DNA of 52,066 nucleotides from Pseudomonadales bacterium (GTDB lineage Bacteria; Pseudomonadota; Gammaproteobacteria; Pseudomonadales; Azotimanducaceae), in the NCBI GenBank assembly GCA_022827905.1, contig JAJEIQ010000022.1:1-52066 (forward strand), read 5' to 3'. The notes under the pieces were generated by a model. It saw nothing but the letters and a program-made list of their open reading frames with translations. It did no database searches and was not told the DNA's origin. Positions 24,819 to 35,996 of the stretch are shown one piece after another. Each line of letters starts with the position of its first letter. Positions within the stretch are counted from its first letter, which is position 1. A program made the translations under genes and the position numbers.

Positions 24819-26294
24819 CTACGACTGAACGCCCAAGTAGCGGGTGCGGACCGTGTAAACGCCGTCTCCGGTGAGGACGCCGCCGCGGGCGAACAGGCGT
24901 CCGTGCTCCCAGGTGGAGAGGCCCAGTTCCGGCTTGCCGAGGGCGTACTGGCCGTCCACCCAGCGGGTATGGCCGTCGCCGACAAAGGGGGCATCCAATG
25001 CGGCGAAGAAGCGTTCGTGCTCAGCGGGATCGCTCGATACCAGGGTGCCAACCAGCTTGGGACTCAACTCGTTGAACAAGGCGACCGCCTGATCGATGGA
25101 GTCAACGGCCACCAACGTGATTTCGGGCGTCTCCTCCCACTCCCACTCGATGCCGAGATCGCCCCTGTCGATGACCACCGCCTGCGGCTCGGTCCTCGGT
25201 CCCTCGGCCCGAACCACCTGCACGTTGGTCTCAAACAGCTCCGGCGGCGCCAGATGCTCGCTGCCGGCGGCGACGTGCAGCTTGAACGCCTGCCCGCGCG
25301 CTTCCCCCGCCCGCTTGAGCGCGTCGATCACCCGTTCCGCGCGGCCGGCAACACCCGGGCCGTCCACGAGACAGCAGGTGTTGAGGGTGTTGCAGACCTT
25401 GCGGTCCAGCGAGCCGACCACGGCATCTGCCACTTGCGCATCGCCAGCGTTGTCGGACACCACCATCCAAGCGCCCCCGGTACCGTGCAGGCTGACGGGT
25501 GTGCCCACTCCCCGCGCAAGGGCACCCAGGGTATCCACCGCTGCCCCGGAGCCTCGAGCCACCGCCAGTGAGAGCCGCGCATCCAGGAACAGCGCCCAGC
25601 CGGCGGCGTGGGCAGCGCTGTCCACCAAGGAAACGGCACCCGCCGGGAGCCCGGCTGCGACCAGCGCCGGTTCGATCACCAGCCGCATGATGGCCTGCGC
25701 CGTGGCCAGCGCGTCCCTGCCGATACGGAACACGACGGCGTTGCCGCCGCGCAGCACCCCGCAGGCATCTGCCAGCACGTTGGGGCGGCCTTCAAAGACG
25801 AAAGCGACGATGCCGAGCGCCGCGCCGACCATCTCGACCCGGAATTCCTGATGCTGCACGGTTTCGAGGACCGTTCCCCGCTGGGACGGCGCATTCGCCC
25901 AGCCGCGCAAGCCGTCGATCATCCCGGTCCGCATGGCGTCGGAAACGGCCAGCCGGGTGGTGGACCGCCCCCGAAGACGGGCTTTGAGCACATCTTCGGC
26001 ATTGGTCTCGGAAATCTCCCCCCAAACCGCATCGTCTTCAAGCAGCTCGGCCGCCAAGGCGTAAAAGGCGACGATGGCCTCGTCGGCAACGCCATGCATG
26101 GCCGCAAAGGCGTCGTCCGCCCGATCGACGGCCCGCTCGGCGCAGTCCGCCTCCGCCGCTGGAATGTGCAGCAGGCCGGTGGGCCCAGCGGCCAGCCGGT
26201 CACCGGCGCTGAACGCCGCCGCCAGCGCTTCGTCAACTACAAACGGATGGCCGTCCCCGGAAAGGACTGTGGTGCCTGCGGTGAGTTCGTTCAT
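24819..26294 (-). CDS. ProA-like (glutamate-5-semialdehyde dehydrogenase family) aldehyde dehydrogenase
   Basis: The true start is the ATG at 26294, in an ATGA overlap with the TauD-like gene; upstream codons in this frame are shadow. The 491-residue protein resembles gamma-glutamyl phosphate reductase: FVFEGRPNVLADACGV, GRDALATAQA, GTGGAWMVVSD, a catalytic Cys in LDRKVCNTLNTCC, and a C-terminal WVDGQYALGKPELGLSTWEHGRLFARG. It is longer than usual ProA (about 417). No proB partner is present. The overlap with a 2-oxoglutarate dioxygenase suggests it acts on a different, possibly hydroxylated, substrate, so I do not use the symbol proA. Confidence 0.75.
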   Translation of the reverse strand: MNELTAGTTVLSGDGHPFVVDEALAAAFSAGDRLAAGPTGLLHIPAAEADCAERAVDRADDAFAAMHGVADEAIVAFYALAAELLEDDAVWGEISETNAEDVLKARLRGRSTTRLAVSDAMRTGMIDGLRGWANAPSQRGTVLETVQHQEFRVEMVGAALGIVAFVFEGRPNVLADACGVLRGGNAVVFRIGRDALATAQAIMRLVIEPALVAAGLPAGAVSLVDSAAHAAGWALFLDARLSLAVARGSGAAVDTLGALARGVGTPVSLHGTGGAWMVVSDNAGDAQVADAVVGSLDRKVCNTLNTCCLVDGPGVAGRAERVIDALKRAGEARGQAFKLHVAAGSEHLAPPELFETNVQVVRAEGPRTEPQAVVIDRGDLGIEWEWEETPEITLVAVDSIDQAVALFNELSPKLVGTLVSSDPAEHERFFAALDAPFVGDGHTRWVDGQYALGKPELGLSTWEHGRLFARGGVLTGDGVYTVRTRYLGVQS

Positions 26295-27187
26295 TGCGAA
26301 GTGGAGCCTTTGCGGCGCAGGTAGCTGAACAGTTGCCGGTCGTGGCGGCTGGCGGCGGACAGCCGTTCCGGGCGCGGCCAAGGCGACCAGCGCGGCGGCT
26401 CGCCCTGGGGCTGGTCGCCGATCACCGTGACCCGTTGGATGATGCGCTCGCTGTCGAAGTCGTTGAGCACGAAGTGCTGGGTGCAGCGGTTGTCCCAGAT
26501 GGCGACGGTGCCTTCGGACCAGCGGTAGCGCACCGTGAAGCGCGGGTTTTTCACCCAATTGGTGAGATAGCGCAGCAGCGCATCGCTTTCGCCGGCATTC
26601 ATCTCGACGATGCGCCGGGTGAAGTGCTCGTTGACGTAGAGCGCCTTGCGTCCGGTTTCCGGGTGTTCGCGCACCACAGGATGCACCATCATGCTGTCGG
26701 GCCGGTTGTGGGGTGCCGCGTCGTGCAGGGCGGTCAGGCCAAGACACAGATCCTGCATGGGCGGAGAAAGCTCCTCGAAGGCCGCGTAGAGGCTCGCCCA
26801 CAGGGTGTCGCCGCCGGTCTCGGGGCACTTCACCATGTGCAGAATCGACATCACCGCAGGCCTTTCCTGGAAGGTGAGGTCGGTATGCCATTCGTCGGCG
26901 ATGCCGCCGTGACTGGCGGCGAGTTCAAAGAGCTCGTCCCGATCCGTGAACGGATTCTTCAAGTTGGGGTGCGATTCCAAGGTGCCGAAGTGACGTCCGA
27001 AGGCGATGTGCTCATCGACGCTGATGCGCTGGCCGGGCAGGAAGAGCACGAGGTGCTCAAGCAGCAGGGACCGAATCGCTTGAGCCTCCTCCGGGCCCGC
27101 CTCGGCCAAGTCAAAGCCGCGCACTTCGGCGCCAAGGGCACCGGCCAGCCGAGTGACTGCCACGTTTGAATCCACCGTCTGCGCCAT
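26291..27187 (-). CDS. TauD/TfdA-family Fe(II)/2-oxoglutarate dioxygenase
   Basis: The 298-residue protein matches the taurine dioxygenase family. It has the metal-binding HxD in EWHTDLTFQERP (His101, Asp103), a distal His in NRCTQHFVLND and a conserved Arg in RIIQRVTVIG. These enzymes use oxygen and 2-oxoglutarate to hydroxylate taurine, other sulfonates, amino acids or small acids. The overlap with the ProA-like dehydrogenase implies a two-step pathway. Upstream, a 93-base gap with a palindromic site separates it from the divergent lipid-tailoring operon. The substrate is not readable from sequence. Confidence 0.86.
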   Translation of the reverse strand: MAQTVDSNVAVTRLAGALGAEVRGFDLAEAGPEEAQAIRSLLLEHLVLFLPGQRISVDEHIAFGRHFGTLESHPNLKNPFTDRDELFELAASHGGIADEWHTDLTFQERPAVMSILHMVKCPETGGDTLWASLYAAFEELSPPMQDLCLGLTALHDAAPHNRPDSMMVHPVVREHPETGRKALYVNEHFTRRIVEMNAGESDALLRYLTNWVKNPRFTVRYRWSEGTVAIWDNRCTQHFVLNDFDSERIIQRVTVIGDQPQGEPPRWSPWPRPERLSAASRHDRQLFSYLRRKGSTSQ

Positions 27188-27280: not shown

Positions 27281-28414
27281 TTGACCCTCGACATCATCCC
27301 GGTGACCAACAAGCGGCTGCTCAAGGCCTTCATCAAGGTGCCTTGGCCCATCTACCGGGACGATGACGCTTGGCGGCCACCCTTGGTGATGGAGCGCCTG
27401 ATGGCCTTCTCCCCCAAGCAGCCGGTGTTCGAGCATTTGGATTGGCAGGCCTGGATCGCCCAACGCGACGGCCGACCCATCGGCCGAATCACCGCCCAAA
27501 TCGACGCCTTGCACCAAGCCCAGCATGGCCAGGGGACCGGCTTTTTTGGGCTGATCGAGGGCGAGGACGACCCAGGCGTCTTCGCCAAGCTGTTCGAGAC
27601 CGCGGAGGATTGGCTGCGCCAACGGGGGATGAATCGGATCATTGGCCCGATCAATTTGAACATCAACCAGGAGATCGGGCTGCTCACCGAAGGCTACGAC
27701 ACCCCGCCCTACTTCATGATGGGCCACGCCCGGCCCTACTACAGCCACCGCATCGAAGGCCTGGGCTACCGGCCCTGCCAGCAGATGCTTGCCTACGAAG
27801 CGGTGACCGCCTACGAGGAGCCCCGGGCCATCGCCGTGCAGCGCAAGCGGCTGGCGCGGCGCATCAACTTGCGCACCTTCGACCGCTCCCACAAGGCAGC
27901 GGACCTGGAACGGCTGCGCAGCATCTTCAACGACGCCTGGCAGGACAACTGGGGCTTTGTGCCCTTCACCGAGCGGGAGTTTCAAGCCTTGGGCCAAATG
28001 CTGCTGATGGTGGTGCCCGACGACCTGATCTGGCTCGCCGAAATCGACGGTGAAGCGGTTGGCTTCATCGTCATGCTGCCCAACATCAACGAGGCGGTCG
28101 CCGACTTGAACGGCCGCCTGCTGCCCTGGGGATGGGCCAAACTGCTGTGGCGGCTGAAGGTCCGGCTGCCAGCCAGCGGCCGGGTGCCGTTGATGGGCGT
28201 GCGCCGCCACTTGCATGACGGCCCGCTTGGCGGCGGCGTGGCCATGAGCCTGATCCATCGGACCCGCGAAGCCGGCCTCGGGCACGGCATCCTCACCACC
28301 GAGACTTCGTGGATACTGGAGGACAACAAGGGCATGCGGGCCATCATGGAGCGCATTGGCGGCGTGATCAGCAAGCGCTACACCGTGTACGAAAAGTCCT
28401 TGGTGTCGGCATGA
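27281..28414 (+). CDS. GNAT-like N-acyltransferase family protein, possible ceramide synthase-type enzyme
   Basis: This 377-residue protein begins at a TTG with GGAAG upstream. It carries the family pattern VTNKRLLKAFIKVPWPIYRDDDAWRPPL, FFGLIEGEDDP, GPINLNINQEIGLLTEGYDTPPYFMMGHARPYY, and a second acyltransferase-like half ending TTETSWILEDNKGMRAIMERIGG. I recognise the family as GNAT-like proteins with two related halves, often annotated only as hypothetical N-acetyltransferases. My recollection, not checked, is that the bacterial ceramide synthase of Caulobacter belongs to this type. It heads an operon of lipid-type genes with an ATGA overlap to the next one. Confidence 0.7.
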   Translation: MTLDIIPVTNKRLLKAFIKVPWPIYRDDDAWRPPLVMERLMAFSPKQPVFEHLDWQAWIAQRDGRPIGRITAQIDALHQAQHGQGTGFFGLIEGEDDPGVFAKLFETAEDWLRQRGMNRIIGPINLNINQEIGLLTEGYDTPPYFMMGHARPYYSHRIEGLGYRPCQQMLAYEAVTAYEEPRAIAVQRKRLARRINLRTFDRSHKAADLERLRSIFNDAWQDNWGFVPFTEREFQALGQMLLMVVPDDLIWLAEIDGEAVGFIVMLPNINEAVADLNGRLLPWGWAKLLWRLKVRLPASGRVPLMGVRRHLHDGPLGGGVAMSLIHRTREAGLGHGILTTETSWILEDNKGMRAIMERIGGVISKRYTVYEKSLVSA

Positions 28415-29196
28415 AAGCCATCTTGTTAGCGGGAAGCCGAGCCGGGGAGCCGTCTGATGGTGGGCGCGGCGACCGGCGGCCCACGCCCCTGACGCCGGTG
28501 GCGGGCGTGCCTTCGCTGGTCCGAGCATTGCGCGCCCTGCGCTGCGCTGAGGCCATTGACGGCGGCCTGCTGGTCGGCCCGGAGCAGCGGCATGGCCAGC
28601 ATGACGGCACCGTCGCCGACCTGCTCGCGGCCGGGGACTTTGAGTGGATCGCACCAGCGGCGGGGCCGGCCGAGAGCGCGCTCAAGGCCATTGAGCGGCT
28701 CGATGCTTGGCCGGTTCTGCTCACCACGGGCGACCACGCCCTGCTGACGGCCCGAACCATCGATGGCTTCTGCGCTGCGGCAGACGCTCAGGATGCCGAT
28801 TTGACGGTGGGCCTTGCGCCCCATCGCCTGGTCGCCGAGCGCTTTCCGGGCCTCAAGCGCACCCGGCTGCGCTTCGCTGATGGGGCCTACTGCGGCACCA
28901 ATCTCTTCTACCTCCACAACCCCAAGGCCGCCCGCGCCATTGCTTTTTGGGTGGCTGTGCAGGCGGACCGCAAGCGGCCCTGGCGGATCGTGCGGCGCTT
29001 GGGCTGGCGCACCTTGGCCATCTACACCTGCGGCCGCTTAAGCGTCGATGCCGCCCTTGCGGAGCTGTCCCGGTTGACGGACTGCGCCTCCGGCTGGGTG
29101 GGTGTTGCGGATCCCCACGCGGCCATCGACGTGGACTCCGCCGCCGACCTTGAAATGGCCGAACAGATACTGCGATGTCGGTCCCAATCCTGTTGA
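28411..29196 (+). CDS. MobA-like NTP transferase domain protein
   Basis: The protein (261 residues) starts at the ATG at 28411, overlapping the preceding stop as ATGA. It has a nucleotidyltransferase-like fold: KAILLAGSRAGEP at the N-terminus, LTPVAGVPSLVRALRAL, VLLTTGDHALLTARTI (acidic metal site) and late IDVDSAADLEMAEQIL. These features resemble the nucleotide-activating domains of MobA/IspD-like enzymes, but the GGxSxRMG loop is changed. It overlaps the lipid kinase gene by 22 bases. A role in making a CDP- or NDP-activated head group is inferred from the neighbours. Confidence 0.7.
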   Translation: MKAILLAGSRAGEPSDGGRGDRRPTPLTPVAGVPSLVRALRALRCAEAIDGGLLVGPEQRHGQHDGTVADLLAAGDFEWIAPAAGPAESALKAIERLDAWPVLLTTGDHALLTARTIDGFCAAADAQDADLTVGLAPHRLVAERFPGLKRTRLRFADGAYCGTNLFYLHNPKAARAIAFWVAVQADRKRPWRIVRRLGWRTLAIYTCGRLSVDAALAELSRLTDCASGWVGVADPHAAIDVDSAADLEMAEQILRCRSQSC

Positions 29197-30020
29197 CCAA
29201 CCCCCGGGCGGGGGTGGGCGAGCACCAGCTCGCGTTTCGCGGCGAGCGCTTCGTGCTGGGTTCCGAGCCGCTTCCCGACCTGTCCCGCTTCAGCCTGTTG
29301 GTCCTCGCCGGCGGCGACGGCACCCTGCAGCGCACCCTGACCGAAGCGCTTGAGCAAACGCCAGCCAGCGCCCTGCCGCCCATCGCCGTGCTGCCGGCCG
29401 GGCGCACCAACATGACGGCGGCGGACCTCAATCGCCATTGGCGCTTCGGGCATTGCGCCAAGGCGCTTGAAGCGATGCTGGATGGCGCGCTGCCACCCGC
29501 CACCGCTCGGCCGCTCGTTCGAGTGGACCAGTCCGACGACCGCCAATACGGCTGGTTCTTCGGGCTGGGCGCGGTGTGTTCCGGAATCGCCCACTGGGGC
29601 GGTTACCGCCCCGGCAGCCAGTTGGGCACCACCCTGCGCACCGCGTGGTCCTCCGCAAGGGGATACCTGACTCCGAGCGAGCATCAGACGGTTCGTTGGA
29701 ATGGCGAAACCCGGCAGGTGTTCGCCATGATCGCCACCACCCTCGACCGGTTGCTGTTCGGCTGCCGCCCCTATTGGGGGGACGGCGAGGGAATGCACAA
29801 CACTTGGGTGTTTGCCGAGGCTCAAGGCCGGGTGCGGCGCAGCTTGCGGCTGCTTAGGGGCGATGCATCCTTGGGCCGGCTGCCGGGCTACGTCAGCGGC
29901 AACCGGGCCAAGCTTGAACTCGAACTCGACGGCCCCTACGTCATCGACGGTGAGCTGTTCGACAACCGGGGCCCCCTGCGGCTTTCCCTGAGCGAACCCT
30001 TGCAATGGCTGGCGTTGTGA
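29175..30020 (+). CDS. Diacylglycerol/sphingosine kinase-like lipid kinase
   Basis: The 281-residue protein has the DAG-kinase catalytic signature LLVLAGGDGTLQRTL and the following AVLPAGRTNMTAADL. Here GGDGT binds nucleotide and the second motif replaces the usual PxGTxND. The C-terminal beta-rich half ends with DGPYVIDGELFDN, equivalent to the DGE motif of this family. Such kinases phosphorylate diacylglycerol, ceramide or sphingoid bases. It overlaps the upstream nucleotidyltransferase by 22 bases and the downstream hydroxylase by 16. The altered substrate loop suggests an unusual lipid. Confidence 0.78.
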   Translation: MSVPILLTNPRAGVGEHQLAFRGERFVLGSEPLPDLSRFSLLVLAGGDGTLQRTLTEALEQTPASALPPIAVLPAGRTNMTAADLNRHWRFGHCAKALEAMLDGALPPATARPLVRVDQSDDRQYGWFFGLGAVCSGIAHWGGYRPGSQLGTTLRTAWSSARGYLTPSEHQTVRWNGETRQVFAMIATTLDRLLFGCRPYWGDGEGMHNTWVFAEAQGRVRRSLRLLRGDASLGRLPGYVSGNRAKLELELDGPYVIDGELFDNRGPLRLSLSEPLQWLAL

Positions 30021-30754
30021 AGGACGACACGCCCAAACCGCGGCTCGGCATCCGCGCGGGCAAGGTGGTCATGCGCACCTTGGACGCCTTTCTGGCCCGC
30101 CATTCACGCATCGCCACCACGCCCTTCATTGACCGCGGCGCCTTTGCCTGGGTGCCGGGGCTGGAAGCCGAAGCCGACGCCATCCGTGCTGAACTCAACG
30201 GCATCCTGCGCCACCCAGAGGACATTCCCACCTTCCACGAGATGTCCCCCGACCAGGTCCGCATCTCCAAGGGGGACAATTGGAAGACGTTCGTCATGCG
30301 CGTGTTCGGCCACCGGATCGACGACAACTGCGCCGCTTGCCCGAACACCGCTGCCCTCATCGACACCCTGCCGGGCGTGCAGAACGCCTGGTTCTCGATC
30401 TTGGCGCCGGGCTACCACATCCCGCCCCACCGAGGGCCGACCAAGGCCTTGGTGCGCTGCCACCTCGGCCTGCGGATTCCCACTGAGGCGGCGGACTGCT
30501 GGATTCGGGTGGGCGATCAAGTCCGGCACTGGGAGGATGGCCGCTGCTTGCTGTTCGACGACACCTTTGAGCACGAGGTGCGCAACGACACCGCCGAATC
30601 CCGGGTGGTGCTGTTCCTGGACGTGGACCGCCCCTTGGACCGCGCCGGGGAATCCTGCCGACGGCTGGTGCTGGCCCTGTTTCGAGCGACCGCCTACGTC
30701 AAGCGCCCGCTGGCCAACATCAAGCGCTGGAATCAAGGACTTAAGCGGCCGTAA
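30005..30754 (+). CDS. Aspartyl/asparaginyl beta-hydroxylase-family (LpxO-like) dioxygenase
   Basis: The 249-residue protein fits the aspartyl/asparaginyl beta-hydroxylase family, which includes LpxO lipid A hydroxylase. Signs are NAWFSILAPGYHIPPHRGPTKALVRCHLGL (His of the metal site, Arg) and GRCLLFDDTFEHEVRNDTAESRVVLFLDV (second His). It would use Fe(II) and 2-oxoglutarate to hydroxylate an acyl chain or head group. There is no N-terminal membrane anchor of the classical LpxO type. The gene overlaps the lipid kinase by 16 bases and precedes the GMC oxidoreductase by 4 bases, so the set is one operon. Confidence 0.82.
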   Translation: MAGVVKDDTPKPRLGIRAGKVVMRTLDAFLARHSRIATTPFIDRGAFAWVPGLEAEADAIRAELNGILRHPEDIPTFHEMSPDQVRISKGDNWKTFVMRVFGHRIDDNCAACPNTAALIDTLPGVQNAWFSILAPGYHIPPHRGPTKALVRCHLGLRIPTEAADCWIRVGDQVRHWEDGRCLLFDDTFEHEVRNDTAESRVVLFLDVDRPLDRAGESCRRLVLALFRATAYVKRPLANIKRWNQGLKRP

Positions 30755-30758
30755 GCAC

Positions 30759-32363
30759 GTGCTCAACGACTTCAACCACGCCAAGGCACCGCATACGGCC
30801 CAAGCCGATGTCTGCATCATTGGCGCCGGCGCCGCCGGCATCACGCTTGCCAGGGGGCTGACCGGCCAGGGCCTGCGCATCCTGCTGCTGGAGAGCGGTG
30901 GCCTGGATTACGGTCCCGAAAGCGCCGCCCTCGGCGCCGGCGAGAACATCGGCTCGACTTACTACCCGCTGGAGGACAGCCGCCTGCGGTTCTTCGGCGG
31001 CACCACCAACATCTGGGGCGGACGCTGCGTCCCCTTGGACGACATCGACTTTCAAGTCCGGGACTGGGTTGCGCACAGCGGCTGGCCCATCGAGGCGGGT
31101 GCATTGGCAGAGGGCTACCGCGCAGCGCATCGGGACTTGGGCGTCGGCACGCCGGACAGCGGTGCCGGTGAGGAAGGCCAATGGGGGGCCGCTGCGCTAT
31201 CCATGGACGCCGACCGCTTCATGAGCCGTTACTGGCGCTTCGACCGGCAGCGTGAGCGCTTCCATGCCAAGCGCACCCAGGACGTGCTCAGGGCGCCGGA
31301 CATCGAGGTGCTCATCCATGCCACCGCGGTGCGTATCCAAGCCCATGCAGACCGGCCGGGCCTCGACCACCTGCTGGTGCGCAACGCCAGCGGACGGACC
31401 GCAAGGGTCCAGGCGAACACCTACGTCCTGGCCTGCGGCGGCATCGAAAACGCCCGCCTGCTGCTGGCTTCGAATGATGTCGAGCCGCTCGGCATCGGCA
31501 ACCGGCACGACCAAGTGGGGCGCTTTTTCATGGAGCACCCCCACGGCCGCCTCGGGCGCATCCGCACGCGCAATCCCTATCGACTCTGGAACGCCTTCCG
31601 CATGCGCTTTCCGCGGGCCAGCGTTCCGGTGGCGCCTGTCCTGCTGCCGACGTCCGCCCTGCAGCGGGAACGGGGCATCCTAAACACCGCGCTGACCTTC
31701 AAGTGGCAACGCAATCCCGCGGCGGGCGTGCCCCGCGCTCGACGCATCTACCAGGAGTTGAAGACCCAGCTCGCGCCCGGACGCGGCAACCGGCGGCTTT
31801 GGCACGCCTACCGGGGGCTGCGGTTCGCCTACGCCCGGTCCCTGCGCCCCCTCCTCACCCGGGGCCTCATGCGTCTTCAGGACTTCCAGTTGAGCGTCAT
31901 GATCCGCGCCGAGCAGGCACCCAACCCAGCCAGCCGCGTCGTGCTGTCCACGGCCAAGGATGAACTCGGCTGCGCCAAGGCGAATCTCGATTGGCGGCTG
32001 GGCGAACAGGATAAGCACACCCTGCGCGAATTGGCCCGCGCCCTGAACGATGAGCTGGTGCGCCTCGATCTAGGCGTTTTGGAGCCATCGCCTTGGCTGG
32101 ACGCACCCGGCCTCGACTGGCCGGTGGACGGCACGGTGGGCAACCATCCCATCGGCGGCTACCACCACGCGGGCACCACCCGGATGAGCGCCGATCCGGT
32201 CGATGGGGTGGTGGATCCGAACTGCGCGGTCCACGGCTACCCCGACCTCTACGTTCTCGGCAGTTCCGTGTTTCCCACCGCCGGTTGGGCCAACCCAACC
32301 CTGACGATCCTTGCCTTGGCCCATCGATTGAAGGCGCATCTGCTGTCGAAGCCCATCGCCTGA
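30759..32363 (+). CDS. GMC-family FAD oxidoreductase
   Basis: I take the GTG at 30759, 4 bases after the hydroxylase stop, as start; the frame is open earlier but only as shadow of the hydroxylase gene. The 534-residue protein has VCIIGAGAAGITLARGL (FAD), LRFFGGTTNIWGGRCVPLDDIDF and the GMC C-terminal block HHAGTTRMSADPVDGVVDPNCAVHG ending LYVLGSSVFPTAGWANPTLTILALAHRLKAHL. It should oxidise an alcohol to an aldehyde or ketone. Within this lipid cluster it could oxidise a long-chain or sphingoid-type alcohol; this is inference. Confidence 0.85.
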   Translation: MLNDFNHAKAPHTAQADVCIIGAGAAGITLARGLTGQGLRILLLESGGLDYGPESAALGAGENIGSTYYPLEDSRLRFFGGTTNIWGGRCVPLDDIDFQVRDWVAHSGWPIEAGALAEGYRAAHRDLGVGTPDSGAGEEGQWGAAALSMDADRFMSRYWRFDRQRERFHAKRTQDVLRAPDIEVLIHATAVRIQAHADRPGLDHLLVRNASGRTARVQANTYVLACGGIENARLLLASNDVEPLGIGNRHDQVGRFFMEHPHGRLGRIRTRNPYRLWNAFRMRFPRASVPVAPVLLPTSALQRERGILNTALTFKWQRNPAAGVPRARRIYQELKTQLAPGRGNRRLWHAYRGLRFAYARSLRPLLTRGLMRLQDFQLSVMIRAEQAPNPASRVVLSTAKDELGCAKANLDWRLGEQDKHTLRELARALNDELVRLDLGVLEPSPWLDAPGLDWPVDGTVGNHPIGGYHHAGTTRMSADPVDGVVDPNCAVHGYPDLYVLGSSVFPTAGWANPTLTILALAHRLKAHLLSKPIA

Positions 32364-32380
32364 TTCGAAGCGACTTCGTT

Positions 32381-32414
32381 CGAGGGCGCGAACCTTCGGT
32401 TCGTTATGCCCTCG
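32381..32414. terminator. Stem-loop after the lipid operon
   Basis: An outer stem CGAGGGC / GCCCTCG (32381-32387, 32408-32414) encloses an inner stem CGAACC-TTC-GGTTCG. It lies 18 bases after the GMC oxidoreductase stop. There is no T-run, so it is not a classic intrinsic terminator. The outer stem matches the palindromic repeat family seen elsewhere in the window. It could work as a repeat-derived terminator or mRNA-stabilising hairpin before the LicC-like gene. Confidence 0.45.
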
Positions 32415-32475
32415 CTCCGTCACAATGAGAATTGCGCCTGAACTGTAAAGGCACAAAATCGGGTAAACTGTTCCA

Positions 32476-33246
32476 ATGAAGGTGATTGTTCTATCCGCTG
32501 GCCAAGGCAAGCGGCTGCTGCCGCTGACCGAGGACCGGCCCAAGTGCGCCCTGATGCTCGGCGAACGGACCGTGCTCGGCTGGCAACTGGAGGCGTTTGC
32601 TGCCGCTGGCGCCACCGAGGTGGTGGTGGCCACCGGCTTTCGCGCCGGGCTCATCGGCCAGCTCATCGACGGCTACGGGAAGCTTACAGTGCGCACCGCG
32701 CACAACCCCTTCTACGCCCACTGCGACAACTTGGGCACCTGCTGGGTGGTGCGCCACGAAATGACCGACCCCTTCGTCATCGTCAACGGCGACACCCTGT
32801 TCGAGCCGGAAATCTTCGCCCGGCTGATCGCGAGCCCAGACGAGCACCCCATCACCTTGGTCACCAACGTCAAGGACAGCTACGACGATGACGACATGAA
32901 GGTGATCGTCGCCGGCAACGAACTCAAGCAGGTGGACAAGAAGCTGCCTGCCGGCGAGGTGCACGGCGAGTCCATCGGCATGATTCGCTTCCAAGGCGAC
33001 GGACCCCGGCTGTTCCGGGAGCGCCTCGAATCCATGATGGCCGTGGAATCCACGCTCGGGCGCTGGTATCTGTCCGCTGTCGATGCCCTGGCCGCCCAAG
33101 GCTACGTCGGCGTCGTTACCACCGGCAGCCACGATTGGTGCGAAATCGACGACCGTAGGGACTTGGAGCACGCCCGCACCACCGTGCCCCTTTGGTTCAA
33201 GCGGCGGCTCTCGGCCAAGGAAAAGCTGGCGGGCGCCATTCGCTGA
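32476..33246 (+). CDS. LicC-like phosphocholine/sugar-phosphate nucleotidyltransferase
   Basis: The 256-residue protein is a nucleotidyltransferase of the NTP_transferase family: MKVIVLSAGQGKRLLPLTEDRPKCAL (NTP loop and Lys), VVVATGFRAGLIGQ, HCDNLGTCWVVRHEM, FVIVNGDTLFEPE (metal Asp) and ITLVTNVKDSYDDDDMKV. This profile recalls LicC-type CTP:phosphocholine cytidylyltransferases and related sugar-phosphate enzymes. A hairpin and a 112-base gap separate it from the GMC gene, so it may have its own promoter. With the second nucleotidyltransferase upstream it suggests activation of a polar lipid head group. Confidence 0.82.
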   Translation: MKVIVLSAGQGKRLLPLTEDRPKCALMLGERTVLGWQLEAFAAAGATEVVVATGFRAGLIGQLIDGYGKLTVRTAHNPFYAHCDNLGTCWVVRHEMTDPFVIVNGDTLFEPEIFARLIASPDEHPITLVTNVKDSYDDDDMKVIVAGNELKQVDKKLPAGEVHGESIGMIRFQGDGPRLFRERLESMMAVESTLGRWYLSAVDALAAQGYVGVVTTGSHDWCEIDDRRDLEHARTTVPLWFKRRLSAKEKLAGAIR

Positions 33247-33270: not shown

Positions 33271-35514
33271 CTAGACCAGCGTGTAGCCCGCTTCACTCAA
33301 GGGCATGGACCGCACACGCTCACCGGTCGCCGCAAAGATGGCGTTGGCGACGGCTGGCGCAAGCGGCGGCAGGGCCGGCTCGCCGAGCCCAGTGGATGGG
33401 TTGTCGCTTTCGATGAAGTGCACGTCGATCTCAGGCGTCGGGGCGATGCGCATGACCGGATACTGATCAAAGTTATCCTGCTGAATGACGCCTTGCGTCA
33501 TGGTGATCTGCTGCAGCGCCATGGTGCTCAGGCCATCAACGACCGAACCCTGCACTTGGCTCAATGCCCCGCTCATGTTGATGATCGGACCGACGTCAAC
33601 CGCCACCCACACCTTTTCGACGCTGATCCTCCGGTCTGCCGTGACCGTCACTTCGGCGACCTCCGCCACGTGGGCAGCGTGGCAAAAGTAGAAGGACAGG
33701 CCTAGGCCGCTGCCCTTCGGCATGGCCCTGCCCCACTCCGCCTTCTCCGCAGCGAGCTTGATGACGTCGATGGCGCGTCCGGTGTTCAGCGCGCCGATGT
33801 CGCCTTCCTTGATCCAGCGCCGCTCACCCATGAGTTCGAGCAGAAACTCGAGATGGTCCCGGCCCGCCAGCACCGCCAGCTCATGAATGAAGCACTGCTC
33901 CACAAAGGCGTTGGTGTTTGATCCGGGCGCCCGCCAAGGACCGCAGGGGGTGGCGATCTCCTGCATGCTGAGCTTGATGCGGGCGTTGGGAAAGGCCACC
34001 GCCGGCAACTCGTTGCCGCGCAGGCCAGACCCCATGACCGGCCGGCCGCCGTTGCTGAACCCGATGTAGTGCTGCTCCCAAGCCGCGAGCCGGCCGTCCG
34101 GACCCACGGCGCCCTTCATGTTCTCGAATCCACCGACGCGGAAGTGGTCGTTGTGAATGTCATCCGTGCGCGTCCAAGTCAGCTTCACGGGAACGCCCGC
34201 ACGGTGCGAGATGGCCATGGCCTCCGTGGCGAAATCGTGCAGCGCCCGCCGGCCGAACCCTCCGCCCATGCGCAACGGATGCACCTGCACCTGTTCGGGC
34301 TGCATGCCAAACAGGCGGCCGGCGATCTCGGTGGCCCGAGCCGGAAACTGGCTGCCGAGCCAGACCTCGAGGGAATCCGGCTCGCCATTGGTGCCCCGGC
34401 GGTAGTCGGCGGTGCAGTTCATCGGCTCCATGCACACATGGGCCACGTAGGGAAACTGGTAGAAGGCCTCGGCCGTCCGGTTGCGCTCATCGGCAAGGGC
34501 CGCATCGACGCCCCCGTTGCCAGCAATGACCCGGCCGCCGCCTTCCCGGGCCGTGCGCTCGGCCCAGGCCACCATGGCCGACCAATCATCAGTCGATGCG
34601 GAGGATTCATCCCACTCGACCTTGAGCTTGCTTCGGGCATCGAACACCGACCAGGTATCGTCGCCGACGATGGCAACGCCGCCGCGCAAGGCGGACACAC
34701 CGTTCAAGAACCACACCTCGGACTCGCCCACAGCGTCATTGGGCTCAAGGATGAAGGCATCCGTGACGCCGGGCAGGCCCTTGATTTCCCTTTCGTTAAA
34801 CCGGACCGCGGTGCCCCCAATGCGCGGGCAACGCACATAGGTGGCGTACTTCATGCCCGGCACATCGACATCGATGCCGAACTCGGTCAGGCCCGTGGCA
34901 ATGACAAAGTTGTCCACGCCGCTGACCGACGTGCCGATGATTCGGTATTCGCTCGGGTCCATGTAGGTCAGGGTTTCCGGGTTGGGCACGGGCTGTTGCG
35001 CCGCCAAGCTCGCGAGCTGACCGAAGGAGCGGTGCTGGCCGGAGATGTGCACGACTTGGCTGTCCCGCGCCTGCAAGCCCTCCCGGTCCACTTCCATCAG
35101 CAGCGCAGCGGCCCCGATGAGCATCTCCCGCGCCGATGCGCCCACTCGCCGCATGGTGCCGATGTTGCGGGGCACCGAGGTGGAGCCCCCCGCTCCCTGG
35201 CGTCCGAATTTGTCCTCATCAAGCGGCGCGTCGATGACCTGCACGTCCTCCCAACGCGCGCCCATCTCCTCCGCGATGATCATCGGCAAGGTGGTCTTGA
35301 TCCCCTGCCCCATCTCCGGGATGCTCGAGTAGATGGTGATCTGACCGTCGCGGTCAATCTGCACGTAAACGTTGAGCTCCTGGGAGCCCACCAGCACGTC
35401 GTCCGGAGGCGACGCGGCAGCCATCGGCAGCGTCGCTTGCAGCAGCACGCCGCCCCCGGCGACCGCCGTGACCTTCAGCATTTCGCGCCGCGTGAGCCCC
35501 GATGTGGTGGACAT
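33271..35514 (-). CDS. Molybdenum hydroxylase large subunit (isoquinoline 1-oxidoreductase beta-like), Tat-exported
   Basis: I use the ATG at 35514; the frame continues upstream as shadow. The 747-residue protein begins with a twin-arginine signal (LTRREMLKVTAVAGGGVLL). It has the aldehyde oxidase/xanthine dehydrogenase molybdopterin-binding body, including SIPEMGQGIKTTLPMIIAEE, MGGGFGRRALHDFATEA, ATPCGPWRAPGSNTNAF and the C-terminal glutamate in STGLGEPALPPLAPA. It pairs with the adjacent 2Fe-2S subunit, with no FAD subunit, as in isoquinoline 1-oxidoreductase-type enzymes. These hydroxylate aromatic or aldehyde substrates in the periplasm. Substrate unknown. Confidence 0.86.
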   Translation of the reverse strand: MSTTSGLTRREMLKVTAVAGGGVLLQATLPMAAASPPDDVLVGSQELNVYVQIDRDGQITIYSSIPEMGQGIKTTLPMIIAEEMGARWEDVQVIDAPLDEDKFGRQGAGGSTSVPRNIGTMRRVGASAREMLIGAAALLMEVDREGLQARDSQVVHISGQHRSFGQLASLAAQQPVPNPETLTYMDPSEYRIIGTSVSGVDNFVIATGLTEFGIDVDVPGMKYATYVRCPRIGGTAVRFNEREIKGLPGVTDAFILEPNDAVGESEVWFLNGVSALRGGVAIVGDDTWSVFDARSKLKVEWDESSASTDDWSAMVAWAERTAREGGGRVIAGNGGVDAALADERNRTAEAFYQFPYVAHVCMEPMNCTADYRRGTNGEPDSLEVWLGSQFPARATEIAGRLFGMQPEQVQVHPLRMGGGFGRRALHDFATEAMAISHRAGVPVKLTWTRTDDIHNDHFRVGGFENMKGAVGPDGRLAAWEQHYIGFSNGGRPVMGSGLRGNELPAVAFPNARIKLSMQEIATPCGPWRAPGSNTNAFVEQCFIHELAVLAGRDHLEFLLELMGERRWIKEGDIGALNTGRAIDVIKLAAEKAEWGRAMPKGSGLGLSFYFCHAAHVAEVAEVTVTADRRISVEKVWVAVDVGPIINMSGALSQVQGSVVDGLSTMALQQITMTQGVIQQDNFDQYPVMRIAPTPEIDVHFIESDNPSTGLGEPALPPLAPAVANAIFAATGERVRSMPLSEAGYTLV

Positions 35515-35516
35515 GC

Positions 35517-35996
35517 TCAAGCTCCCTTGGCTGCGTTGCGGGCTTGGGCGGCGCTGTGCACCGCCTTGCGAATGCGAACGTAGGTTCCGCAGCGGCAGTA
35601 GTTGCCGGCCAGCGCTTGGTCGATGTCCGCATCGGTTGGCTTGGGGTTGCTTTCCAGCAAGGCTGCAGCGCTCATGAGCTGCCCGGATTGGCAATACCCG
35701 CACTGCGGCACGTCATGTTCAATCCAAGCCGCTTGCAAGGGATGGGGGTCGCCGTTCTTCGCAGCCAGCCCTTCGATGGTAGTCACCGCACCGGCGACCG
35801 CCTGCACCGGCAGGACGCAGGATCGTGTCGGCACACCGTCAATCCGCACCGTGCAGGCGCCGCACTGGGCGATGCCGCAACCGTACTTGGTTCCGGTGAG
35901 CTTCAGCTTGTCACGCAGGACCCACAAAAGCGGCATGTCGGGCCGGACCTCCACTTCCCGATCCCTGCCGTTGACACGCAATTTGAATTTGGCCAT
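35517..35996 (-). CDS. (2Fe-2S) small subunit of the molybdenum hydroxylase (iorA-like)
   Basis: The 159-residue protein has two cysteine groups typical of these subunits: [15 protein letters not shown] with CVLP for the plant-type cluster, then CGYCQSGQ and CRCGTYVRI for the second cluster. It begins [11 protein letters not shown] and carries no signal, so it is probably exported with the Tat-tagged large subunit. The stop is 2 bases before the large-subunit start. It relays electrons from the molybdenum centre to an acceptor, which in related enzymes is often a cytochrome rather than NAD. Confidence 0.9.

Follow-up and report, generated by a model that had tools for sequence, protein, structure and literature searches.

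The DNA analyzed here, contig JAJEIQ010000022.1 of the Pseudomonadales bacterium assembly GCA_022827905.1 (52,066 nucleotides; hereinafter the window), is contig C64 of a 4.44 Mb genome that consists of 81 contigs and is 96.8% complete; this source genome is labeled G000 in the comparisons below, and other genomes bear labels of the same kind (G008, G028, G133, G872 etc.). Six genes, all located on the + strand between positions 27281 and 33246, form an operon that is predicted to function in sphingolipid biosynthesis:

27281..28414, + strand: gene 1, predicted ceramide synthase (bCerS/CerS) ortholog, GNAT fold, 377 amino acids (aa), TTG start
28411..29196, + strand: gene 2, predicted CC_1153 ortholog, MobA-like NTP transferase, 261 aa
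29175..30020, + strand: gene 3, DAGK_cat protein similar to the ceramide kinase CpgB, 281 aa
30005..30754, + strand: gene 4, AspH/OlsC/LpxO-type 2-oxoglutarate Fe(II) hydroxylase, 249 aa
30759..32363, + strand: gene 5, GMC-family flavin adenine dinucleotide (FAD) oxidoreductase, 534 aa, GTG start
32476..33246, + strand: gene 6, predicted ortholog of CpgD, the CTP:phosphoglycerate cytidylyltransferase, 256 aa

The families of all six proteins had been assigned in the original prediction, made from the letters of this DNA, and Pfam searches bear these assignments out: GNAT (gene 1, Acetyltransf_1, 1.1e-6), nucleotidyltransferase (gene 2, NTP_transf_3, 9e-8), diacylglycerol kinase (gene 3, DAGK_cat, 1.1e-8), Asp/Asn hydroxylase (gene 4, Asp_Arg_Hydrox, 1.8e-51), GMC oxidoreductase (gene 5, GMC_oxred_C, 1.5e-21) and a second nucleotidyltransferase (gene 6, NTP_transf_3, 9.9e-12). 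The ATGA or short overlaps that it described among the first five genes exist between genes 1 and 2 (4 bases, ATGA), 2 and 3 (22 bases) and 3 and 4 (16 bases), but not at gene 5, which starts at GTG 30759, 4 bases past the end of gene 4, and is separated from gene 6 by 112 bases. Two alternative starts were rejected, namely TTG 30129 for gene 5, which merely marks where a start codon first occurs in an open frame reaching back into gene 4, and the mechanically assigned GTG 28309 for gene 2, for which ATG 28411 was taken. Comparison with four of the seven same-genus genomes that possess a cpg-linked GMC gene yielded dN/dS values of 0.20-0.25 for gene 3 (part of the gene), 0.14-0.17 for gene 4, 0.13-0.16 for gene 5 and 0.05-0.10 for gene 6; genes 4 and 5 are under purifying selection. 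These values, together with the conserved gene order in genomes of the same family, rule out chance clustering. A scan for promoters and terminators detected nothing exceeding shuffled sequence.

As the reference, we used the ceramide (di)phosphoglycerate locus of Caulobacter vibrioides DSM 9893, located through an exact match of the 20-base cpgD primer printed in PMC12275187. The genes of this locus were named after PMC11324152, on the basis of their order and, for those tested, their domains: CC_1168, LptC2; CC_1165-1162, AasR-CerR-AcpR-Spt; CC_1161, CpgC; CC_1160, CpgB; CC_1159, CpgA; CC_1158, metallophosphoesterase; CC_1156/1155, LptF2/LptG2; CC_1154, CerS; CC_1153; and CC_1152, CpgD. Gene 1 matches CC_1154 over its full length (BLASTP, 46.7% identity over 375 aa, 8e-115) and gene 2 matches CC_1153 (BLASTP, 37%, 1.5e-37); a gene 2 homolog adjoins CerS not only in Caulobacter but also in 6 genomes of the same order whose CerS proteins are 43-51% identical. 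The lipid substrate, it had been suggested, may come from outside the window, and indeed contig C12 of the same genome carries the run aasR (acyl-ACP synthetase), cerR (epimerase-type reductase), acpR (acyl carrier protein) and spt, in the same order as in Caulobacter. The respective proteins show 43% (AasR), 33% (CerR), 31% (AcpR) and 54% (Spt) identity to those of Caulobacter (BLASTP), so that all five ceramide core genes, spt, acpR, aasR, cerR and cerS, are present at 31-54% identity. The aminotransferase encoded in this run has as its best match among solved structures the serine palmitoyltransferase (SPT) PDB 2x8u (2.9e-121), compared with 5.5e-65 for the best 2-amino-3-ketobutyrate ligase, and is, judging by these matches, an SPT; it alone was compared with solved structures among the 18 aminotransferase class I/II matches in the genome, 16 of which were read (L007 in a wrong frame). 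Neither a lack of long-chain base genes nor an acyltransferase of an unrelated family, both of which would have spoken against a ceramide product, is observed: SPT and cerR are found and gene 1 is a full-length match to CerS.

The head-group genes specify the lipid further. Gene 6 is 47.3% identical to CpgD (BLASTP, 3.5e-67). PMC13228409 and PMC12275187 name CpgD residues that are catalytic or contact CTP, the Mg-bound water or glycerate. Of 13 such active-site positions compared, gene 6 retains 12, among them Asn90, Asn110, Met147, Lys161 and Ser170 that surround the glycerate; the only difference is at Thr88, which makes a backbone contact to CTP and corresponds to Cys83. Gene 6 is accordingly predicted with confidence to be the CpgD ortholog. 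Gene 3 shows 30.9% identity to CpgB over 269 aa (BLASTP, 2e-21), retains a GGDG motif that is invariant in 5 aligned sequences and is the only one of the scored candidates of the source genome (5 of 29) to match the CpgB alignment at 1e-15; its matches to solved structures are weak and involve mixed lipid kinases, and the gene context points to ceramide as the preferred substrate. The genes for CpgA (46%, 2.1e-89) and CpgC (34%, 5e-29) are adjacent on contig C65, with genes for a flippase-like protein, a CC_1158-like phosphoesterase and LptF/LptG-like proteins as neighbors. Thus, the gene set for ceramide phosphoglycerate (CPG) and ceramide diphosphoglycerate (CPG2) is complete in this genome, with 46% identity for cpgA, 31% for cpgB, 34% for cpgC, 47% for cpgD and 37% for CC_1153. 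According to PMC11324152, CC_1160 and CC_1161 are required for CPG, and CC_1159, CC_1153 and CC_1152 for CPG2.

The GC content is 0.66 in the window and 0.65 in the retrieved stretches of C12 and C65. In G133, which belongs to the same family, a single contig carries 16 such genes at approximately 13.3-31.2 kb, in the order cerS, CC_1153, cpgB, GMC, cpgD, CC_1157, LptF, LptG, CC_1158, cpgA, cpgC, flippase, spt, acpR, cerR, aasR. Given the matching GC content and this compact arrangement of approximately 18 kb, a contamination artifact is unlikely. Compared with the C. crescentus CPG2 locus (CC_1168-CC_1152), the source genome shares CerS, CC_1153, CpgB and CpgD in the window, Spt, AasR, CerR and AcpR on C12, and CpgA, CpgC, the CC_1158 phosphoesterase, the flippase and the LptF/LptG-like proteins on C65. 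It differs in that the genes are distributed over three assembly contigs, that cpgB is not adjacent to cpgC, and that a hydroxylase and a GMC gene are inserted between cpgB and cpgD. We therefore consider it probable that the operon is the second half of the known CPG/CPG2 pathway for an outer-membrane lipid, to which two enzymes have been added as an oxidative tailoring module; the pathway is known, and the inserted pair is the new part. The (phospho)ceramide-like product that had been proposed is thus supported by the CerS ortholog and, since gene 6 appears to be a CpgD ortholog and CpgA and CpgC are encoded in the genome, can be narrowed down to a ceramide phosphoglycerate.

Adjacent to spt on C12, with a 4-base overlap, is a gene for an 880-aa protein with PPDK_N and PEP-utilizers domains (L038, 10516-14068), followed by a gene of the 3-hydroxyisobutyrate dehydrogenase family. 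We rejected the PPDK-like protein as a general pathway component: it is spt-adjacent in three of the seven Spt-bearing genomes of the genus (G000, G872, G873; the G876 locus stops just past spt) and at no locus of another genus. Elsewhere, G008 has a similar PPDK-like gene near cpgB/cpgC (L069), and in G028 (L029) and G071 (L028) such genes adjoin distant CerS-like GNATs. A dedicated supply of phosphoglycerate for CpgD is a possible, purely conjectural function.

Gene 4 belongs to the Asp_Arg_Hydrox family together with OlsC and LpxO, with which it shares the AspH-like fold: the structural model (pLDDT 84.6) resembles human AspH with a TM score of 0.81, normalized by the length of the target. 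Residues H142, H190 and R200, which align with human AspH and are invariant in 14 sequences, presumably are the two conserved histidines and the 2-oxoglutarate-binding arginine of AspH-type oxygenases. The protein differs from OlsC and LpxO in its location in a sphingolipid operon and in its NCBIfam scores, 201.8 bits for OlsC (cut-off 450) and 118.7 bits for LpxO (cut-off 500), both under the equivalog cut-offs. The Caulobacter locus encodes no protein that BLASTP matches to gene 4 or gene 5 at 1e-3, and the Caulobacter genome has no match to gene 4 at 1e-6. In Caulobacter, a DesA-family protein, CC_0202, hydroxylates the amide-linked acyl chain according to a report cited in PMC11324152. Proteins of the FA_desaturase family number four in the source genome and two in Caulobacter. 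Of the latter two, L147, possibly but not certainly CC_0202, shares 37% identity (7e-43) with L148 on contig C46 of the source genome and 42% with a G133 protein; the second one, L153, has no real match in the same comparison. Hydroxylation by gene 4 would employ chemistry unrelated to that of CC_0202, and the enzyme may act beside a CC_0202-type enzyme rather than replace it.

In gene 5, GMC_oxred_C scores above the Pfam cut-off and GMC_oxred_N below it (16 of 23 bits). The residues G22, G24, G27 and E45, which we take to be the FAD-binding motif, and H470 and N512, presumably the C-terminal catalytic His/Asn pair, are invariant; in the GMC residue count, which covers 17 sequences, G913 was excluded and X was substituted for the stops of G961 and G1016. 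No signal peptide is discernible. The structural model is of intermediate quality (pLDDT 75), and its nearest solved folds are fructose dehydrogenase, the Burkholderia FAD glucose dehydrogenase and C-glycoside oxidase. Gene 5 thus shares the GMC superfamily and the closest solved folds with the FAD sugar dehydrogenases and pyranose oxidases, but differs from them in the low identity of 19-20%, a TM score of approximately 0.6 for this intermediate-quality model, and the lack, by eye, of an adjacent small-subunit-like gene. In other genomes, GMC paralogs of 39-45% identity (L085, L087, L090, L091) adjoin a small protein (144-189 aa) whose start looks twin-arginine-like by eye, an arrangement that resembles two-subunit dehydrogenases; no such partner is present beside gene 5. 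A basic helix at positions 342-370 (eight Lys/Arg, no acidic residue) is common to the cpg-type GMCs, and five of the eight paralogs have a gap of approximately 8 residues there; rows G961 and G1016 were dropped from this comparison, and the GMC alignment (A4) includes 14 of the 18 cpg-type GMCs, with G872, G913, G961 and G1016 excluded and G956 included.

The distribution of the hydroxylase-GMC pair was surveyed in a 398-genome sample of the phylum, a 369-genome sample of the class and 206 genomes of the family of the window. Because only some of the candidates were scored (up to 7 per genome in the family GMC search and 5 in the phylum CpgB search), the tallies are lower bounds. In the phylum sample, a CpgB match was detected in 28 genomes; 25 of the 27 loci other than that of the window have CpgC nearby, and in none of the 27 does gene 4 or gene 5 occur within approximately 1.5 kb, by profile search as well, in accord with the earlier remark that the combination of a GMC oxidase with an LpxO-like hydroxylase is unusual. 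CpgC itself, despite this frequent adjacency to cpgB, belongs to an uncharacterized family, the Caulobacter protein (L043, 12923-13804) having no Pfam match at 0.01. Among the 23 genomes of the class sample with a GMC match at 1e-40, the window alone has cpg genes within approximately 1.5 kb of it, indicating that the GMC is not a general CPG component; this role was rejected also in view of the lack of a close full-length ortholog in five cpg genomes of other families and in Caulobacter, which has only GMC paralogs of 30-34%. Within the family, a GMC match at 1e-60 was found in 22 genomes, and 24 loci were examined. The GMC gene adjoins cpgD at 17 of these, from seven genera, with cpgB on the other side at 16 and the hydroxylase at 14, and the cpgD-linked proteins are approximately 52% or more identical to gene 5; the remaining seven include a 49% relative (in G956) and six paralogs of 34-41%. 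Spt is encoded in 16 of the 17 genomes with a cpgD-linked GMC, in G956 and in one of the four paralog-only genomes (18 of 22 overall), and in nine of the 17 it lies on the same contig as the GMC gene, 4.5-33 kb away. Searches of open-licence literature for a GMC enzyme or dioxygenase in a bacterial sphingolipid locus revealed, among the matches listed, nothing relevant and no such hydroxylase-GMC module, and none appears in the 11-gene scheme in the sections of PMC11324152 that were consulted.

The pathway that we propose begins with AasR, AcpR and Spt (C12), which would make 3-oxo-sphinganine; gene 1 (CerS) would N-acylate it, and reduction by CerR would follow. As stated in PMC11087976, Spt and CerS are cytoplasmic and CerR is periplasmic. 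Gene 3 (CpgB) would phosphorylate the ceramide, with CpgC (C65) leading to CPG, and gene 6 (CpgD) would supply CDP-glycerate, the presumed substrate of CpgA (C65) in the formation of CPG2, for which gene 2, the CC_1153 ortholog, would be needed as well; export of the lipid may be the task of the flippase-like and LptF/LptG-like proteins encoded on C65. Gene 4 would hydroxylate the acyl chain, by analogy with the action of OlsC and LpxO on other lipids, and gene 5 would then oxidize one alcohol of the lipid. We infer from sequence every reaction in the source organism, those of genes 4 and 5 above all. The chances that gene 4 adds a hydroxyl to the acyl chain appear to us evenly balanced. For gene 5, a hydroxyl of the head group (glycerate) is the leading candidate target, at somewhat less than even odds, given the adjacency to cpgD at 17 loci and the structural relatives that act on sugars; a chain or sphingoid hydroxyl, suggested by the start 4 bases past the hydroxylase gene, comes next and is rather unlikely. 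None of this evidence is decisive between head group and chain. Taken together, these steps would yield an undescribed class of anionic sphingolipids, CPG2 with the acyl chain hydroxylated by an AspH-type enzyme and the glycerate head or the chain oxidized to an oxo or carboxyl group by a dedicated GMC enzyme, a product that we put forward tentatively.

Several observations weigh against this scheme. The identity of gene 3 to CpgB is only 31%, and PMC10331486 reports that Caulobacter CpgB takes diacylglycerol, too, in vitro. Gene 4 falls short of the OlsC and LpxO cut-offs, and a CC_0202-type hydroxylase may be present in the source genome as well; because of this desaturase-family relative, we lowered our estimate for acyl chain hydroxylation by gene 4, which had been somewhat better than even, and slightly that for the tailored CPG2. 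G878 and G879, each assembled as a single contig, have the GMC gene 1.6 and 0.9 Mb away from spt. The hydroxylase is missing at three of the 17 loci (in G133 it is located elsewhere; G941 and G901 were judged at the locus only), and G877 keeps the layout but lacks cpgB between the CC_1153 ortholog and the hydroxylase gene (L164). No Spt was found in the draft genome of G874, which has the layout, while G956 combines Spt with the 49% GMC away from cpg genes and G937 has Spt with a GMC paralog only. Finally, all module-bearing loci come from one family and hence are not independent.

Among the alternatives, the one that survives best, to which we assign about one chance in four, is that gene 5 oxidizes the hydroxyl introduced by gene 4 (hydroxyacyl to oxoacyl) and not the head group. 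The 4-base spacing of the two genes fits this possibility, as does the finding that, among the eight genomes searched for both, close orthologs of both occur only in G000 and G133, but the three cpgD-adjacent GMC genes without a hydroxylase and the action of the structural relatives of gene 5 on sugars and polyols argue against it. It is somewhat less probable still that the core makes CPG/CPG2 and genes 4 and 5 are merely co-transcribed, acting on another lipid or metabolite such as ornithine lipids, lipid A or a soluble sugar. The nearest curated families of gene 4 (OlsC and LpxO) and the nearest solved structures of gene 5 (sugar dehydrogenases and pyranose oxidases) are compatible with such a role, and the matches to genes 4 and 5 in Caulobacter and the five cpg genomes of other families are weaker, partial or absent; however, all 17 GMCs of approximately 52% identity or more are beside cpgD, in contrast to the six paralogs of 34-41%, and Spt is lacking in three of the four paralog-only genomes (G875, G936 and G982, but not G937). 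That the operon phosphorylates and decorates diacylglycerol or ornithine lipids, and not ceramide, would agree with the in vitro activity of Caulobacter CpgB on diacylglycerol (PMC10331486) and with the resemblance of gene 4 to OlsC, but is highly improbable considering the CerS, CC_1153 and CpgD orthologs in the operon itself and the presence of CpgA, CpgC and a complete spt run elsewhere in the genome.

The operon is flanked by a divergent gene for a TauD/TfdA-type dioxygenase (26291-27187), 93 bases upstream, and by convergent genes for the molybdopterin-binding and 2Fe-2S subunits of a molybdenum oxidoreductase (33271-35996).

CPG2 is reported to support the survival of Caulobacter without lipopolysaccharide (PMC12275187) and has been proposed to be the polymyxin target in this bacterium (PMC11324152). 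From the extension of the CPG/CPG2 pathway by two oxidative steps, conserved across seven genera within a single family, a new surface lipid can be predicted, and gene 4 becomes a candidate dioxygenase for the hydroxylation of sphingolipids, with no relation to CC_0202 of the DesA type. The compact gene set also offers a way to probe the head-group chemistry of CPG2, which is still unclear. If the proposed scheme is correct, the oxidized CPG2 would make the cell surface more charged or more reactive.

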